Positions 4,692 through 23,509 of a DNA stretch of 23,587 nt are shown piece after piece. Positions within the stretch are counted from its first letter, which is position 1. Every line of letters begins with the position of its first letter. Source of the DNA: a virus; the IMG/VR virus record IMGVR_UViG_3300035698_021334, positions 1 to 23,587 of that record; one strand, written 5' to 3'. A program made the position numbers and the translations under genes. The notes beneath the pieces were generated by a model. The model had not been told where the DNA came from. It saw only the letters and a list, made by a program, of their open reading frames with translations, and searched no databases.

Positions 4692-6734
4692 ATGAGTGAA
4701 AAATTGGATTTTTCTCAATTTCTTAGAAAGACAGACAAAACTCCTTCACAAGAAGAGTCAATTTCCGAATTTGCTCAATATAAAAGAAAACCAGAAACTC
4801 CGAAGCGTGGACTTTACGAACAATTTGTAGAACGTCCGGGACAAATAGCCGGTCAAGCCGCAGTGGCTGGCATTCGGGCCCTTCCTAGGACAGCTTTTGA
4901 TTTACTAAAAACAGTTGTCTCAGCGACAGGTGGGGACATTTCTAAGTTGGAAAAAGCACAAAGTCAATCCCCTGAATGGTTGAAATCTGCTGCATCAAAA
5001 GCATTCCCTACTTACGAAGAAGTGCGCACAGGTCAACAAGGCCAGAAAACTTTTACTGAAGATAAATTGCTGGCTCAACCAGAAGGTGCATTTGAACGCG
5101 GAATTGAAAAATTCGGAAGATTTGTCGGAGAGGCCCCTGCATTTGGTGGAGTGGGAGGGGTAAAAGGATTAGCTTCTCTAGGTGGGTTAGCTACAGGTGT
5201 TCAGGTAGCTGAAGAGAGCGAATTAGGCCCTGTAGGACAGATCTTGTCAGGTGTGGCAGGAGCGTTCGTTCCTGGGGCTGCATTAGGTACACTCAAAGGC
5301 GTAGCTAAAGCGCTCACGGCTCCCAAGAAATTGATTGCGAAGGGCGTTTCTTTATTTACTCCAAAGGATACTCTTGCTCTTCAGAAACAAATTATAAGTG
5401 ATGCGCGAGAGGCTGGAGTTCAGTTAGATATCGGTTCTTTGACAAACAGTAAGATGATGAAAGGTCTTCAAACTCATTTAGCTCAATCCCCCCTCACTGG
5501 AAACGCTCTTGAAGAATTAAAGGGACGGTTATCGGCACAAGTAGTAGGTGGGTATAAGACTATCGCTGAAGATTTAGGTAATGCAAAATTTGAGACTGTG
5601 CATGATGCTGGAGAAGCGGTACAAAATAGACTTAGGGTCGAACGCGATGTAAGCAAAGCTCAATACAGCAATATCTATAATGAAGCTACAAAAAGACTAA
5701 CTGATAAGTCGACTGTTTATCCTGATCGAATCATTTCTATGATTGATAAATTAGAAACTCAGCTTAAGCCAGGGAGTTTAAAAGGAACTGAACAAAAAGC
5801 AGTCTTACAATTTATTGAAGATCTAAAAAAGGATGTGATGCATCCTACCGGGGAGTTGAAGTCTGCTAAAGTTAAAGACCTGATAAATGACAAGATCGCT
5901 ATACATGATATCGTAGATTATGAAATTGAAGGTGGCACAAAACAGTTATTAAAACAACTTGCGAAAGAGATTGATACGACAATTCAACAATACGGTCGAG
6001 AAGATGCTCAATTTGCTAAAAACTATAAGTTAGCTGACAAGAAATTTGGTGAGCATGCAAGCACTTTCCGCAATAAAAATATCGCCTCTTCATTAAAAAC
6101 ACAAGATCCGCGACAGATCCTCACAAAAATGAATACCACTCGGGGGATTAGAGATATCAAAAAGGCATTAGATTCCTCAGCTCAAGGCAAAGAGCTATTT
6201 AAAGATCTCTCAAGATTTAAATTGGATCAGATCCTAGAAAAAAATCTTGAGTACGGGCTTAACCATAATATTAAATTCGGAGGGTTCGCAGGATCCCTGA
6301 AACACGGAAATAACAGGGAGATAGTTAATGAGTTATTGGGTCCAGAAGCTTCTAATCGCCTCGACAAACTAATGAAAACATCAGGGACCATCGCCGATTC
6401 GGCTACTAAATTCTTGAATACGAGTCAATCTCAGGTATCTCTTGTAAGTTTAGCTTTTGCTGGCAAGTTAATGTCGGATATCGCTCGGGTATTTTCTGGG
6501 GATATTCTCCCTGTAGTAAAAACAGTGGGAACCTTGGTCGCAGTTCGCAAGGTATCCAAGTTGATATCTGATCCTAAGTTTCTTAAATTATTAGAAGAGG
6601 CTATTTTAGCATCTAAAACCAACAATCCTCATATCATGGAAAGGGCTGCATCTCGATTAAAAGATGGGTCTAAAATAGCCCTTCGAACAGCAAGCGATCT
6701 GCCTTCCGATGTCTCCTCTCCTCAAGACGAATAA
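4692..6734 (+). CDS. Probable large ejection protein (P22 gp16-like)
   Basis: 680 residues; ATG 4692 one base after the upstream stop. The first 80 residues are polar and disordered. Residues about 140-205 are Gly/Ala-rich and hydrophobic (runs such as G-G-V-G-G-V-K-G-L-A and V-G-Q-I-L-S-G-V-A-G-A), suggesting membrane-active segments. Residues about 215-540 are long charged helices, and a second hydrophobic Ala/Val/Leu patch lies near residues 575-625. Size, composition and third place in the set fit a pilot protein that enters the host membrane during DNA delivery. The last 65 bases overlap a convergent leftward gene. No enzymatic motif (for example lytic transglycosylase) is visible. Confidence 0.65.
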   Translation: MSEKLDFSQFLRKTDKTPSQEESISEFAQYKRKPETPKRGLYEQFVERPGQIAGQAAVAGIRALPRTAFDLLKTVVSATGGDISKLEKAQSQSPEWLKSAASKAFPTYEEVRTGQQGQKTFTEDKLLAQPEGAFERGIEKFGRFVGEAPAFGGVGGVKGLASLGGLATGVQVAEESELGPVGQILSGVAGAFVPGAALGTLKGVAKALTAPKKLIAKGVSLFTPKDTLALQKQIISDAREAGVQLDIGSLTNSKMMKGLQTHLAQSPLTGNALEELKGRLSAQVVGGYKTIAEDLGNAKFETVHDAGEAVQNRLRVERDVSKAQYSNIYNEATKRLTDKSTVYPDRIISMIDKLETQLKPGSLKGTEQKAVLQFIEDLKKDVMHPTGELKSAKVKDLINDKIAIHDIVDYEIEGGTKQLLKQLAKEIDTTIQQYGREDAQFAKNYKLADKKFGEHASTFRNKNIASSLKTQDPRQILTKMNTTRGIRDIKKALDSSAQGKELFKDLSRFKLDQILEKNLEYGLNHNIKFGGFAGSLKHGNNREIVNELLGPEASNRLDKLMKTSGTIADSATKFLNTSQSQVSLVSLAFAGKLMSDIARVFSGDILPVVKTVGTLVAVRKVSKLISDPKFLKLLEEAILASKTNNPHIMERAASRLKDGSKIALRTASDLPSDVSSPQDE

Positions 6735-6930
6735 GTTTCAAATCAATCACTTGTTGCCTCTCTAATTCTAAGTTGGCAATCTTGCATTCCTCTGCGATCC
6801 GATCCTCATCTTTACAAAAATCATAAAACCACTTCCATACTAAAGGGACGGCTAGAAATCCCAAAGGATACCCAAAAAAAAGGCCAACCAGCCCAGATAT
6901 AATTAAAACACCAATGATGTCTTTAAACAT
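6670..6930 (-). CDS. Small membrane protein, candidate superinfection-exclusion/moron product
   Basis: 86 residues read leftward, converging on and overlapping the large ejection gene by 65 bases. AGGGGG lies five bases before the ATG, and a sigma70-like promoter lies just upstream. Residues about 4-35 are strongly hydrophobic (one long or two short membrane segments around a G-Y-P-L-G turn). Residues 38-86 are a charged helix rich in Glu, Arg and Leu that could form a cytoplasmic coiled coil. Its own promoter and opposite strand mark it as an accessory gene. In P22 the membrane protein SieA lies at this place, next to gene 16, and blocks DNA entry of related phages. An equivalent role is inference; a holin or spanin-like role is also possible. 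Confidence 0.7.
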   Translation of the reverse strand: MFKDIIGVLIISGLVGLFFGYPLGFLAVPLVWKWFYDFCKDEDRIAEECKIANLELERQQVIDLKLIRLEERRHRKADRLLFEGLF

Positions 6931-6952
6931 AATCCCCCTATAATTTGACGAT

Positions 6953-6980
6953 ATAATACCACAACTGTCATTTAATTCAA
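6953..6980 (-). promoter_or_regulatory. Sigma70-like promoter for the 86-residue membrane protein
   Basis: On the minus strand TTGAAT (6975-6980) and TATTAT (6953-6958) are 16 bases apart, placing transcription start near 6945, about 15 bases before the ATG and just before its AGGGGG ribosome site. It overlaps the end of the upstream leftward reading frame, so this gene can be expressed on its own. Confidence 0.55.
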
Positions 6981-7162
6981 TTAGCGATCTTTCTTTTATT
7001 ATTACTAATTTTGATTTGATGTTTCGTGCGTCTTTTCCTTGGGATCTTGGTGTCCTCGGTGTTGATCACAGAAAAAATAAATTCAGAAGGCCGACCATTA
7101 GATTGAAACAGACCGTGATATTCGTTCGAGTTGGGTGACCGTCTATAGAATTCCTGACTTTG
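6977..7162 (-). other. Coding-like open frame without a start codon (possible frameshifted gene part)
   Basis: 61 codons are open in this frame between TGA (7163-7165) and TGA (6977-6979), without ATG, GTG or TTG in the first half. The translation looks like a real protein: S-P-N-S-N-E-Y-H-G-L-F-Q, then N-G-R-P-S-E-F-I-F-S-V-I-N-T-E-D-T-K-I-P, ending in a basic K-R-R-T-K-H-Q-I-K tail that could bind nucleic acid. The overlapping frame (7066-7227) has a good start but ends in an unconvincing hydrophobic tail. A single -1 shift near 7160 would join its first 22 codons to this frame, giving about 83 residues. Real frameshifting, a mutation or a base error are all possible. Confidence 0.45.
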
Positions 7163-7227
7163 TCAATCAAAAGAGCGCAAAGGGATGTATCATCTTTTTT
7201 GGACTTTTTGGTTAGATCATTTTTCAT
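7066..7227 (-). CDS. Small ORF coupled to the RHH gene (possibly frameshifted)
   Basis: 53 residues as read. ATG 7227 has AAGGAG seven bases upstream and lies inside the end of the RHH gene, so translation from here is well supported. The first 22 residues are Lys/Asp-rich and polar; after about residue 30 the reading turns into Thr/Asn/Leu/Phe-rich sequence ending in a hydrophobic run that looks out of frame. The alternative -1 frame downstream is more protein-like, so the native product may be longer and different at its C-terminus. Function unknown; location beside a small regulator suggests a partner or target gene. Confidence 0.45.
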   Translation of the reverse strand: MKNDLTKKSKKDDTSLCALLIDKVRNSIDGHPTRTNITVCFNLMVGLLNLFFL

Positions 7228-7366
7228 TTGCAGTCTCCTTGAGTTCTTTGATTCTGTCTTTCACGGCGATACGGATAAATTGGCTCATTGTCTTATGAGT
7301 GAGAACACACATGATTTTGAGCTCCGTCCATTCACTATCTGGAATTTCGAAAGTTATCCGTGCCAT
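7217..7366 (-). CDS. Ribbon-helix-helix (Arc/Mnt/CopG-type) DNA-binding protein
   Basis: 49 residues, ATG 7366 with AGG about eight bases upstream. The layout is that of a minimal RHH repressor: a basic N-terminal beta strand (R-I-T-F-E-I-P, residues 3-9), helix A (about 11-25), a T-M-S-Q turn, and helix B (about 28-44, F-I-R-I-A-V-K-D-R-I). Arc and Mnt of P22 are of this size and fold and act as dimers or tetramers on operators. This is the first gene of a leftward island between the ejection genes and the fibre gene, where P22 carries mnt and arc. It probably represses its own island, the facing fibre promoter, or both. An antitoxin of CopG/ParD type is an alternative. Confidence 0.65.
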   Translation of the reverse strand: MARITFEIPDSEWTELKIMCVLTHKTMSQFIRIAVKDRIKELKETANEK

Positions 7367-7428
7367 TTTTGTGCCTATATGTTTTTTGTAATTTTCTCAT
7401 GAATCGTCTTTAAAAGCGAAAAAAGATT

Positions 7429-7456
7429 TTGGATTAAAATAAGCTTTACATACATT
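7429..7456 (+). promoter_or_regulatory. Probable promoter of the first fibre gene
   Basis: TTGGAT (7429-7434) and TACATT (7451-7456) with a 16-base spacer, followed 35 bases later by ATG 7492 with AGGAG (7481-7485). A promoter is needed here because the preceding island is transcribed the other way. The region is AT-rich and could also hold operators for the RHH protein; I see no perfect palindrome. Confidence 0.45.
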
Positions 7457-7491
7457 GAGGTTAAGAAAGAAAAATTATTCAGGAGTTTAAG

Positions 7492-9855
7492 ATGCCAAAA
7501 TATGCTAGACCAAATTCGTACAACGGAAAACAAGGAACACAAGCATGGACGGGGCAATCTCGTTTCGCCAATGACAGTGAGGCCGCTGACGGAGCAATCA
7601 CCAACCTAGCTATTTCCCCTTCAACCCTTGCATCTGCCGTAGGATCTTTAGTCCCTCAAGCAACCACAACTGTTTTCGGATCAGTTAAGCTTACTGACTT
7701 GGGCGCACCTACAGGCACAGTCGCAACTAAATTCTATGCTGATAACTTGGCGATTGCGGGCGCACCTGCATGGAGTGAAACTGTATCGGGGATTGGTCAA
7801 TTGGCTACGTCGCTCGAAACAACTACATATACAAATGATAACGTTGCGATTACTCCACTAAAATTAAGTCTAGCTTTTGCATCCCCACCTGCTATGGGAG
7901 GCACATTGGCTGCTGCCGGTTTGTTTACAACAATCGGAGCAACGGGCCTTGCATCTTTGAGTGCATCAGCAACCATTACTACAGGCGCAACAGCCTTGAA
8001 TCTTGCTTCGGATGCTTCAACGGGCGCGGTGAATATTGGTACTGGTGCAGGAGCTAGAACACTGATTATCGGGAACGTTACTGGTGCAACAGCAGTTACG
8101 ATTAATACTGGAACAGGAGGCATTGCACTTAATACCACTGGTACAGGCGATATGGTATTTGCTTCAGCTGATACAGTATTGATCGATTCAGCGGGCGTTT
8201 TAGAGCTTAACTCTTCAGCAGGTGTGATTGGGATTGGTAACGATGCCGTTTCTCAAAACATTAATATGGGTACAGGCGCAGCAGCCCGAACTATCACTCT
8301 CGGAAATTCAACTGGTGCAACAAGCATTGTTTTGAATGCTGGTACAGGCGCTCTAAATATTGGAACAAACTTAATCGCCCATACAGTCACCATCGGTAAT
8401 GCAACGGGTGCTACTGCCTTAGTTCTCACAACTGGTACAGGAAACTTTGTCCTCGATGGGGTTGGTGCTTCTACATACTCTGTGGGGCCATCTACAACCA
8501 CAGGTACAATCGCAATCGGAGGAACAGCCCAGACAGGGACAACAACTCTTGGATCGTCTTCAGGTACTAATATCGTAGCGATCGGCGCAGGTGAGGGCGC
8601 AACTACGATCAACATTGCGAGAGGAGCAACAGCAGCTAAAGTGGTAAATATTGCTGATGGAGCTGTAGCCAACCTTGTAACGATCGGAACTACTTCAGGC
8701 GCAGCAGCTTTGACCTTGAAGGCAGGAACAGGTAACTTTAGCCTTGATGGAGCTGCAACTACTGCCTATACATTTGCTCCTTCAACAACCTCTGGACTTA
8801 TTAATATCGGCGGGACTGGTGCGAATACCGGTACAGTAACTCTATTTGGAGGTACTGGCGCACAGACAGTAAACCTAGCTAACTCTACAGGTGGTAAAAC
8901 TGTAGCAATTGCAACGGGAGCTGGCGCAAATCTAGTTTCCATCGGTTCAGCTACTGGGGCCGCGTCTCTTACTCTACGTGTTGGAACTGGCAACTATTCT
9001 CTCGATGGTGCAGCAACCTCAACCTATGCAACTGGCGCAAGCACAACCACAGGAACTATAACAATCGGTGGTACTGCGCAAACCGGAACGATGACTTTAG
9101 GGTCTTCTTCAGGTACTAATATTGTAGCTATCGGAGCGGGGGAAGGAGCTACCACTGTCAATATTGCAGGGGGAGCAACGGCTGCTAAAGTTGTAAATAT
9201 TGCAACAGGCGCGGTCGCTAACCTTGTGACCATAGGATCTTCATCTGGTGCGGCAGCCATGACTCTCTTGGTTGGGACTGGTAACTTCTCTCTGAACGGC
9301 GCAGCCACATCGGACTATACATTTGCTCCTTCAACAACCTCTGGTACGATCAACTTTGGTGGTACTGGAGCGAATACAGGGACTGCAACGATTCTTGGGG
9401 GATCTGGAATTCAGGCTATAAACGTCGCCAACTCTACGGGTGTCAAAACTCTACAGATCGCAACAGGAGCCGCGGCGAATATCGTTACTATCGGGTCTAC
9501 TAATACAACGGCTGCGACTACTATCCAAGCTGGATCTGGCAATGTCAATATAGTAGGAAATCTAAGTTTGCCAAGTGCAGCTACGAAAATTATTTTAAAT
9601 GGCGGGGCTGCAACTAGTGCGATAGGAACTGGTACTTTGATTGCTGGAACAGTAACAATAAGCAACACAAATATTGCGTCTTCTGACATAATCCTTATCA
9701 GCAGAAGCAATTTAAACGGGACTCCCGCTTTAGGATTTTTATCCTATACTATCAGTGCAGGTGCAAGCTTCACTGTAGCTTCGTTTGGTGTGACAGGGGC
9801 TGCCGTGGCAACTGATGTAAGTAGCTTTTCGTACATCGTATTCGGCCAATCATGA
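7492..9855 (+). CDS. Repeat-rich tail fibre / tailspike-type protein
   Basis: 787 residues, AGGAG eight bases before the ATG. Residues 1-80 are an attachment-type N-terminus (S-R-F-A-N-D-S-E-A, then A-I-S-P-S-T-L-A-S-A, then T-T-V-F-G-S-V-K-L-T-D), a pattern frequent in phage fibres. Residues about 130-685 are Gly/Thr/Ala/Ile repeats built on units like V-T-I-G-x-x-T-G-A-x-x-L-x-L, expected to form a long beta-helix or triple-stranded fibre. An alternating 97/86-residue double repeat occupies about 315-680. The last 110 residues lose the repeat and look like a globular C-terminal head domain with the common G-T-x-x-I-A-G-T-V-T-I-S-N-T motif, probably receptor-binding. It probably corresponds to the P22 gene 9 slot, though sequence and fold differ. 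Confidence 0.75.
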   Translation: MPKYARPNSYNGKQGTQAWTGQSRFANDSEAADGAITNLAISPSTLASAVGSLVPQATTTVFGSVKLTDLGAPTGTVATKFYADNLAIAGAPAWSETVSGIGQLATSLETTTYTNDNVAITPLKLSLAFASPPAMGGTLAAAGLFTTIGATGLASLSASATITTGATALNLASDASTGAVNIGTGAGARTLIIGNVTGATAVTINTGTGGIALNTTGTGDMVFASADTVLIDSAGVLELNSSAGVIGIGNDAVSQNINMGTGAAARTITLGNSTGATSIVLNAGTGALNIGTNLIAHTVTIGNATGATALVLTTGTGNFVLDGVGASTYSVGPSTTTGTIAIGGTAQTGTTTLGSSSGTNIVAIGAGEGATTINIARGATAAKVVNIADGAVANLVTIGTTSGAAALTLKAGTGNFSLDGAATTAYTFAPSTTSGLINIGGTGANTGTVTLFGGTGAQTVNLANSTGGKTVAIATGAGANLVSIGSATGAASLTLRVGTGNYSLDGAATSTYATGASTTTGTITIGGTAQTGTMTLGSSSGTNIVAIGAGEGATTVNIAGGATAAKVVNIATGAVANLVTIGSSSGAAAMTLLVGTGNFSLNGAATSDYTFAPSTTSGTINFGGTGANTGTATILGGSGIQAINVANSTGVKTLQIATGAAANIVTIGSTNTTAATTIQAGSGNVNIVGNLSLPSAATKIILNGGAATSAIGTGTLIAGTVTISNTNIASSDIILISRSNLNGTPALGFLSYTISAGASFTVASFGVTGAAVATDVSSFSYIVFGQS
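8434..9531 (+). repeat. Alternating A-B-A-B protein repeats inside the fibre gene
   Basis: Unit A spans 8434-8724 and 8983-9273 (97 codons each); unit B spans 8725-8982 and 9274-9531 (86 codons each). Each starts with a G-T-G-N-[FY] motif. The copies are very similar as protein but differ at many third codon positions, so the duplication is old and kept by selection on the protein rather than recent. Confidence 0.8.
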
Positions 9856-18545: not shown

Positions 18546-19667
18546 ATGAAAAATAATACGTCATTAATAGAAGCTAACTTATCCATCACCATAAAAACAA
18601 CTAAGCACGACAAAGATCATCCTTATGTGAAGATCTCAACGAAAATGATACGAGACAGATCTATCTCTCCAAAATCTAAGGGTATTCTTTGTTATTTCCT
18701 TTCACTTCCAAAAACATGGGAAACTCATCCCAAGGAAGTAGCTCGCTCATTGGGTATTAGCAAAGATCAGGTTTATACAGCTTTAAATGAGCTATTAAAA
18801 GAGGGGTACTCATTTAAGAAAGAAGTCAAAGGGGAGAAGGGAAGGTTTGGATCTATTATTTATGAATTCTACGAGGAGAAACTTCCTTTACATGAACGTT
18901 TTAAAGAAAAGACTTTACATGAACGTTTTAAAGAAAAGACTTTAAATGAACGTTTTAAAGAAAAGAGTACCGTGTCGGCAAAACCGGATCCGGACTTCCC
19001 GGATCCGGACTTCCCGGATCCGGATATCCCTCCTATAGTAAATATTGACCCTAGTAAGAAACCACAAACAAATTCTTCTTCCTCCTCTCCTCCTTCGGAG
19101 TCGCGGAGGGATGATGATGATGAAAAGATGGTCGGTTCTTCTGAAGAGAAGATTCCTAGAAATCCTAAAAATGCAAAACCTCTTTCTGGCGAACAGAAAT
19201 GGAAAAATAATGCAATATCTCAGGGATATTCCGAAAAAGAAGCCAATCAAACATGGGAAAAATATATTAAGATGCCCCCTGGGACGGTCAAACACCCCTC
19301 AGGATGGTTAAAGAGAGATTTGGAATCTGCTCAACTTACTAGCGACAAAGAAGAAGAACTTTCTTTTCGAGGGAAATCTCGGGCATCTGACTTAGAAAAA
19401 GATTTTATCGCTAAGGAAGTTTCTCAAGCCGAATCAGCGAAGGAAGCGATTAAGACCATAGCAACAAACAAAAAGATCCTAGAAGGCTATAAAGATATAC
19501 CGTGGATTGACCTCAAGAAATCTGACAATGGCAATGAATATCTTATCCTACTCTCATCGGAAAGATCCTTGAATAATACTTCCGTTTCTTATTGTGATCC
19601 GTTCCTGCCATCTCTTTTAGAAAGATTTGAGAATGAATGGGCTAGAGAAAAAATTACTTCAGGTTGA
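18546..19667 (+). CDS. Replication initiator / replisome organiser (lambda O-like role)
   Basis: 373 residues, AAGGAG before ATG 18546. Residues about 25-110 form a winged helix common to phage initiators (H-P-Y-V-K-I-S, then S-P-K-S-K-G-I-L-C-Y-F-L-S-L-P, then the helix-turn-helix V-A-R-S-L-G-I-S-K-D-Q-V-Y and E-G-Y). Residues 115-161 are two sets of short repeats (L-H-E-R-F-K-E-K-T three times, P-D-P-D-F three times) whose DNA resembles iterons. Residues about 165-205 are Ser/Pro/Asp-rich and disordered, and the C-terminal 150 residues contain K-H-P-S-G-W-L-K-R-D-L-E and probably contact the helicase. The DnaB gene follows one small gene later. The 189 bases upstream hold no gene; I see only weak promoter-like AT-rich stretches there. 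Confidence 0.75.
   Translation: MKNNTSLIEANLSITIKTTKHDKDHPYVKISTKMIRDRSISPKSKGILCYFLSLPKTWETHPKEVARSLGISKDQVYTALNELLKEGYSFKKEVKGEKGRFGSIIYEFYEEKLPLHERFKEKTLHERFKEKTLNERFKEKSTVSAKPDPDFPDPDFPDPDIPPIVNIDPSKKPQTNSSSSSPPSESRRDDDDEKMVGSSEEKIPRNPKNAKPLSGEQKWKNNAISQGYSEKEANQTWEKYIKMPPGTVKHPSGWLKRDLESAQLTSDKEEELSFRGKSRASDLEKDFIAKEVSQAESAKEAIKTIATNKKILEGYKDIPWIDLKKSDNGNEYLILLSSERSLNNTSVSYCDPFLPSLLERFENEWAREKITSG
18887..18967 (+). repeat. Three tandem 27-bp repeats in the initiator gene (iteron-like)
   Basis: Units at 18887-18913, 18914-18940 and 18941-18967, the first two identical and the third differing at two positions (C to A at position 5, C to G at the last). Each contains ATGAACGTTTTAAAG and an inverted pair CTTTA/TAAAG across a unit boundary; in the last copy the arms extend to CTTTAAA/TTTAAAG. 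They encode L-H/N-E-R-F-K-E-K-T. Lambda O carries its origin iterons in the same place. Confidence 0.85.
18984..19028 (+). repeat. Three tandem 15-bp GC-rich palindromic repeats
   Basis: Units at 18984-18998, 18999-19013 and 19014-19028, each beginning with the perfect palindrome CCGGATCCGG; the third ends GGATATC instead of GGACTTC. They encode P-D-P-D-F. The GC content is far above the surrounding gene, and an AT-rich stretch follows (about 19030-19080). Confidence 0.85.
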
Positions 19668-23029: not shown

Positions 23030-23112
23030 CGTGGTACCTTCATCTCGATTGCTGTTTTCAACATGGAAATAAAAGCAAATTGTGCATTCGCAGATAGGTC
23101 TTCAAGATTCAT
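23026..23112 (-). CDS. 28-residue coupled peptide
   Basis: ATG 23112 follows AGAGG by five bases and overlaps the upstream stop as ATGA; its own stop overlaps the next ATG the same way. The peptide is one amphipathic helix (N-L-E-D-L-S-A-N-A-Q-F-A-F-I-S-M-L-K-T-A-I-E). Being locked between two genes by overlaps at both ends is the main evidence that it is translated. Confidence 0.55.
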   Translation of the reverse strand: MNLEDLSANAQFAFISMLKTAIEMKVPR

Positions 23113-23315
23113 TTTTTCCTCTCTTCAATTGCACAGAGTCTTCCATGGAAATCTTTAGATTCGGCCTCGATCGCTCTAACTGCATCGATGAGATCCCTTC
23201 TCAACTGTTTGCTATCCTTCTCAAAGGAACGTCTGTCACTAGTCGATTCTGATCGACTCCACAGAAAGAGCCCCGCAATGGTGACTAAAAGTATTAAAAA
23301 TTGTGCCCATTCCAT
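23109..23315 (-). CDS. Small membrane protein, paralogue 2
   Basis: 68 residues from ATG 23315, overlapping the upstream stop (TAATG). N-terminal membrane helix (about 3-19), then W-S-R-S-E-S-x-x-D-R-R and a long charged helix with Q-L-R-R-D-L, K-D-F-H-G-R-L and E-E-R-K-K at the end. It shares F-L-W-[ST]-R-x-E with D-R-R and L-R-x-D-L with the neighbouring gene, so the two arose by duplication. Similar one-span coiled-coil ORFs occur in other phages and plasmids; role unknown, with entry exclusion or membrane anchoring as options. Confidence 0.65.
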   Translation of the reverse strand: MEWAQFLILLVTIAGLFLWSRSESTSDRRSFEKDSKQLRRDLIDAVRAIEAESKDFHGRLCAIEERKK

Positions 23316-23509
23316 TATTTTCTCCCCATTTTATCCAGTCTCTTCCAAATCCTTCCTAGATCATCTCGGAGCTTCTCAACGGAATCACTCCCATGTCTAC
23401 GATCCTCATTAGCTTCTCCCCTTGTCCACAGGAACATCGTAAGCATGCATCCTACAATGGTGAAGACTCCAAAACAAATCGCTATGATTAATCCTATACT
23501 ATTGTCCAT
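23315..23509 (-). CDS. Small membrane protein, paralogue 1
   Basis: 64 residues, first gene of the leftward cluster; GAGGAA about five bases before ATG 23509. Membrane helix at about 6-28 (I-G-L-I-I-A-I-C-F-G-V-F-T-I-V-G-C-M-L), then F-L-W-T-R-G-E-A-N-E-D-R-R and a charged helix ending in L-R-D-D-L-G-R-I-W-K-R-L-D. It shares the core pattern with the following gene but has a shorter tail. Predicted to sit in the inner membrane with the helix in the cytoplasm. Confidence 0.65.
   Translation of the reverse strand: MDNSIGLIIAICFGVFTIVGCMLTMFLWTRGEANEDRRHGSDSVEKLRDDLGRIWKRLDKMGRK

Follow-up and report, generated by a model that had tools for sequence, protein, structure and literature searches.

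A core leftward gene with exchangeable cargo between the ejection-type and fibre genes of a phage family, in the slot and order known from P22

Phage morons and other accessory loci are antisense genes that have a promoter of their own and are set between structural genes. The closest described counterpart of the locus reported here is the immI/sieA region of phage P22. In the annotated P22 record, mnt, orf59a and sieA run leftward from divergent promoters and end beside gene 16, in an interval bounded by the last ejection gene and the tailspike. Among P22-like phages the mnt/sieA interval is variable, and phage L retains only an mnt-like gene and orf62 (PMC8022706). In the literature that our search covered, which takes in few subscription papers, such a locus is not described outside P22-like phages.

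We find that a window of 23,587 bases, which is the complete IMG/VR record IMGVR_UViG_3300035698_021334 with open ends, contains a leftward island in the interval between an ejection-type gene and a fibre gene, the roles of both being read from position and relatives. The features of this slot are:

4692-6734, plus strand: 680-aa ejection-type gene, the last of the ejection-type genes by position and the left border of the slot
6670-6930, minus strand: 86-aa ORF, small membrane protein with a charged C-terminal half
7066-7227, minus strand: 53-aa ORF
7217-7366, minus strand: gene of a 49-aa ribbon-helix-helix (RHH) protein, first in the leftward series and pointing away from the fibre gene
7367-7491, no strand: intergenic region of 125 bp between the RHH and fibre starts
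7492-9855, plus strand: 787-aa repetitive fibre-type protein with a conserved N terminus, the right border of the slot

The three leftward ORFs of 86, 53 and 49 aa bear out the strand switch that a preliminary description of this DNA had placed between the ejection-type and fibre genes. The 86-aa ORF and the 680-aa gene, on opposite strands, share 65 nt at their 3′-ends, and the start of the 53-aa ORF overlaps the stop of the RHH gene by 11 nt. The order of RHH gene, 53-aa ORF and 86-aa ORF, running leftward into an ejection-type gene, parallels mnt-orf59a-sieA, with the 53-aa ORF in the position of orf59a, and the ejection-type and fibre genes bound the window's interval as the last ejection gene and the tailspike bound that of P22. 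The proposed equivalence to the immI/sieA slot therefore holds for order, strand and interval, but arc-ant is absent and homology to SieA or orf59a is undetected. The window has no rightward gene in the stretch from the RHH start to the fibre start and hence no arc/ant counterpart; its RHH gene is single, and arc, ant and sar are all missing. SieA has about 164 aa and three membrane segments, in contrast to the 86 aa of the window's membrane protein, and BLASTP between the two gave an E-value of 6.5; orf59a and the 53-aa ORF have no significant similarity, and the ejection-type and fibre families gave no clear match to P22 gp7, gp20, gp16 or gp9. The RHH profile compared with Mnt gave a probability of 10.8% and an E-value of 0.0028 that refers to one comparison (hmmsearch E 0.11), which is similarity at the level of the fold only, and compared with Arc it gave an E-value of 0.19. 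The proteins are thus, as had been surmised, not obviously homologous to those of P22.

The solid part of the leftward island is the 49-aa gene, which is predicted to encode a protein of the RHH fold. An AlphaFold model made from an alignment of 16 sequences is helix-helix with a mean pLDDT of 92.7; both helices are assigned in this monomer model and the short strand of the RHH fold is not. Among the 50 matches listed by Foldseek against the PDB most are RHH proteins, for example AtaR, KacA, ParG, ParD, CopG and Arc, with E-values of at least 0.07 because the 49-aa chain is short. Pfam RHH_1 (CopG) matches the window protein with 16.0 bits (E 0.012), below the curated cut-off of 20.5. The PHROG family phrog_582, ‘Arc-like repressor’, matches nine of the 14 RHH family members weakly (best E 0.0015); a PHROG search with the window protein itself gave no match, and the RHH family profile found no convincing relative by sequence among solved structures. 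The predicted fold together with the homologues in relatives makes the frame a real gene, and the minimal RHH protein first noticed in the island is upheld.

Relatives were collected by scans with the fibre N terminus (14 loci), the 680-aa ejection-type gene (two) and the 633-aa tail gene (three), and were searched with an HMM of two RHH proteins, one of which comes from one of the 14 fibre-fetched loci. Upstream of the fibre gene the model detects an RHH frame on the opposite strand in 13 of these 14 loci at E ≤ 7e-13, with a weak match in L018 (0.028). Exactly one RHH copy was found in 17 of 18 records searched in full, the gene being missing in G004, a 7-kb fragment, and tblastn with the window RHH protein alone matched 20 of 23 records (E 2e-13 to 6e-5), missing the fragments L004 and L005 and the divergent G015. 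The RHH gene is also divergent from the fibre gene in G002, in G003 and in four new contigs, all retrieved with non-fibre queries. The four contigs are among the nine loci returned by a scan with five RHH proteins, and the fibre gene adjoins the RHH gene in three of the four; in the last, L063, where the contig ends within the apparent fibre start, the fibre gene is inferred only. As a scan with RHH proteins alone gives fibre-adjoining loci, the association between the two genes does not depend on the fibre-based search. Blast families built at E 1e-4 from the window and 17 records class the RHH family, which has 16 members, as core, and since the RHH gene is retained alone in the slots of G007, G012, L061 and L062 it is a core gene and not cargo. 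Its presence does not depend on the membrane protein. Compared across related phages, the slot has a leftward RHH gene with variable, often membrane-protein, cargo at the equivalent position, so that the RHH gene is neither unconserved nor scattered over unrelated places.

G006 and G009 (L029/L030 and L039/L040) have their head-tail block inverted with respect to the fibre gene, from which the RHH gene is not separated; the block is likewise flipped against the fibre/RHH pair in L063. In G006 and L063 TerL thereby adjoins the RHH gene.

We tabulated cargo for the 15 slots having both borders, excluding the RHH gene and applying a Kyte-Doolittle cut of at least 1.6. Small membrane proteins are present in ten of the 15 by this cut and in 12 by eye, the proteins of G003 (1.44) and G016 (1.05) lying below the cut and being judged membrane-bound by eye. 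Cargo is absent from G007 and G012, and that of G013 includes no protein that passes the cut. The membrane families vary by genome (F27, F39, the 86-aa type and singletons), and annotation with PHROG, Pfam and PADLOC gave clear names only to a type III methyltransferase in G005 (L014) and a serine recombinase in G013 (PHROG integrase, E 2e-28). Candidate terminators shared at the slot end were found only in G007, G010 and G016 of the 15. The window carries an F27-family small membrane protein far from its slot (23109-23315, minus strand), and since F27 genes lie inside the slot in other members, such genes move between places. A second small membrane protein is encoded next to it (23315-23509, minus strand). 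The slot cargo of G009 (L010, 3772-4787) includes proteins with strongly hydrophobic stretches, which look endosymbiont-like by eye and have no PADLOC match.

For the control region between RHH and fibre genes, 17 intergenic regions were compared with dinucleotide shuffles. Sigma-70 matches toward the leftward genes exceed the shuffles (Fisher 7e-7, combined values being overstated because the records are related) and are individually at p ≤ 0.025 in G009, G011, G016, G017 and G018; those toward the fibre gene do not exceed them (Fisher 0.87). The 16-mer TTATTCAATTATTCAA occurs once each, exactly in G016, G017 and G018 and with one mismatch in G012, and G014 has its inverted form; in these five genomes the element is directly upstream of the first leftward gene and covers the candidate -10. 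Direct repeats scoring 7 or more, all with a period of 8, are found in seven of the 17 regions (individual p 0.010 to 0.164), and over all 17 the Fisher values are 0.016 for direct repeats and 0.020 for palindromes. The TTGAATAATTGAATAA region is present in G017. The eight-base boxes of these repeats presumably recall those of MetJ. Repeated operator-like elements at the putative promoter of the RHH gene thus appear in five to seven of the 17 regions and not in the window, in whose intergenic region neither promoter (leftward RHH promoter p = 0.557) nor palindrome nor repeat reaches significance, so that for the window the model of regulation is drawn from relatives. By analogy with them, 7367-7491 would be the expected site of an operator and a leftward promoter. 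A ATTTAAATTTAA-like AT-rich motif precedes the fibre start by 5-55 nt, with a Gibbs score of 226 where six shuffles reached 183 at the most, but it has no consistent recurrence before other late genes, and we therefore refrain from naming it a late promoter.

We suggest, with about even confidence, that the locus encodes an autoregulated Arc/Mnt-like RHH repressor that is core to this phage family and carries exchangeable, probably exclusion-type cargo. The 49-aa protein would be a dimeric repressor of the Arc/Mnt/CopG kind, made from a leftward promoter pointing away from the fibre gene, and it would bind the short repeated boxes over the -10 of that promoter and so limit its own operon. The operon could then serve as an antisense accessory locus whose cargo differs by phage and is most often a small membrane protein adjoining the ejection genes. 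Host polymerase may read it independently of the late message, which would allow it to act early or in a carrier or lysogenic state. Our guess, made by analogy, is that the membrane proteins might interfere with the entry of a second phage, and among the roles they could have we favor this one. It counts against the autorepressor that, in the four slots where it has no cargo, it needs another reason to persist.

That persistence without cargo is more readily understood if the RHH protein chiefly regulates the divergent fibre operon, by timing or repression, the cargo being a passive late addition, and this is the alternative we find hardest to set aside, though still doubtful. The RHH gene always adjoins the fibre start, even in records with an inverted head block (G006, G009 and L063), and the AT-rich motif described above precedes that start. 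Yet sigma-70 promoters toward the fibre gene are not above chance, the best operator-like repeats lie over the leftward -10, and the RHH protein does not co-vary with the fibre N terminus: RHH distances correlate with those of the portal (r 0.63), the exonuclease (0.64) and TerL (0.47), each at p ≤ 0.001 over 15 genomes, and with those of the fibre N terminus, a short segment, at r 0.08 (p 0.29, 17 genomes), which counts against a specific fibre pairing.

Somewhat less probable, to our judgement, is that the 53- and 86-aa ORFs arose by chance, which would leave the RHH gene as the one real gene of the three in the window. The preliminary description called the 53-aa ORF a coupled small gene; the 11-nt overlap stands, but the ORF has no relative at E ≤ 0.01 in 23 records. 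Of the 86-aa ORF it had claimed a small membrane protein with its own promoter. The hydrophobic N end (Kyte-Doolittle maximum 2.21) partly supports the former, whereas the promoter search gave one match upstream (minus strand, 6980-6953) where shuffles average 2.8, so that the promoter is not above chance. The 86-aa protein likewise has no match at E ≤ 0.01 when the 23 records are searched together, no match among exclusion, defence or lysis families, and no counterpart among the viral contigs searched. Against chance frames speaks a marginal relative in G002 (E 8.3e-5 when this one record is searched), which lies in the equivalent operon on the same strand and whose alignment with the 86-aa protein has p 0.006 against composition-kept shuffles, as does the recurrence of membrane proteins at the equivalent place in relatives.

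Small size and membrane segments, together with the weak PHROG holin match of a G010 cargo protein (E 0.018), could also fit holin-type lysis proteins in an operon that serves as a lysis control module. We consider this improbable, as the operon is antisense to the late genes, the membrane families vary by genome and are missing from several slots, and no endolysin adjoins by eye. A role of the RHH protein as an antitoxin or as a regulator of plasmid type, with the small leftward ORFs as toxin or partition partner, is very improbable, for although its nearest folds include AtaR, KacA, ParD and ParG, the gene behind it is not constant, four slots have none, and the window proteins have no PADLOC match.

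With regard to distribution, no near DNA match to the window was found among phages; tblastn against them gave nothing with the 680-aa gene and two weak Serratia phage records with the portal, and plasmids gave no match. One MAG contig labelled Bacteroidales carries a family member, but this is likely a binning artefact, as a search of 296 genomes of that phylum gave no match to the portal in 295. A chlamydial or other endosymbiont host, guessed from the look of some cargo, found no support, and a literature search for it gave nothing. The MAG of one family member has a second, partial portal-like frame with 40% identity (G018:C66:10477-10857, L065). Tyrosine recombinase-like frames (G010 30254-31318, G007 29261-30196) and ParA-like frames (F73 in G012 and G017), both named by eye, point to a temperate or plasmid-like life in some members. 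Elsewhere in the window, the tail protein encoded at 1214-3115 matches the E1_FCCH domain (E 3e-10), which also occurs in a ‘phage stabilization protein’ and in further records, the majority from Vibrio and Xanthomonas phages, and 18886-18966 holds three tandem 27-bp repeats within an ORF for a replication-type protein by eye.

It is a tentative and rather unlikely generalisation that the ejection-to-fibre interval is a repeatedly invented home of RHH-controlled exclusion genes, in which the RHH gene is fixed and the membrane protein is swapped between lineages because it targets the ejection of kin. If so, the P22 immI/sieA arrangement would not be peculiar to P22, and unrelated phages would have reached it independently. 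What the comparison supplies in any case is a fixed regulator of 49 aa and a set of small membrane proteins that are candidates for exclusion. With the CopG, Arc and ParD regulators the window protein has the predicted fold in common, although it falls under the Pfam RHH_1 cut-off. Unlike in phage morons, the regulator here is a conserved core gene and only the genes behind it are exchanged. In conclusion, slot and order are as in P22 and the genes are different, and the earlier proposal of an immunity or exclusion module in this slot is partly supported, the reading we favor being a core repressor with exchangeable cargo.
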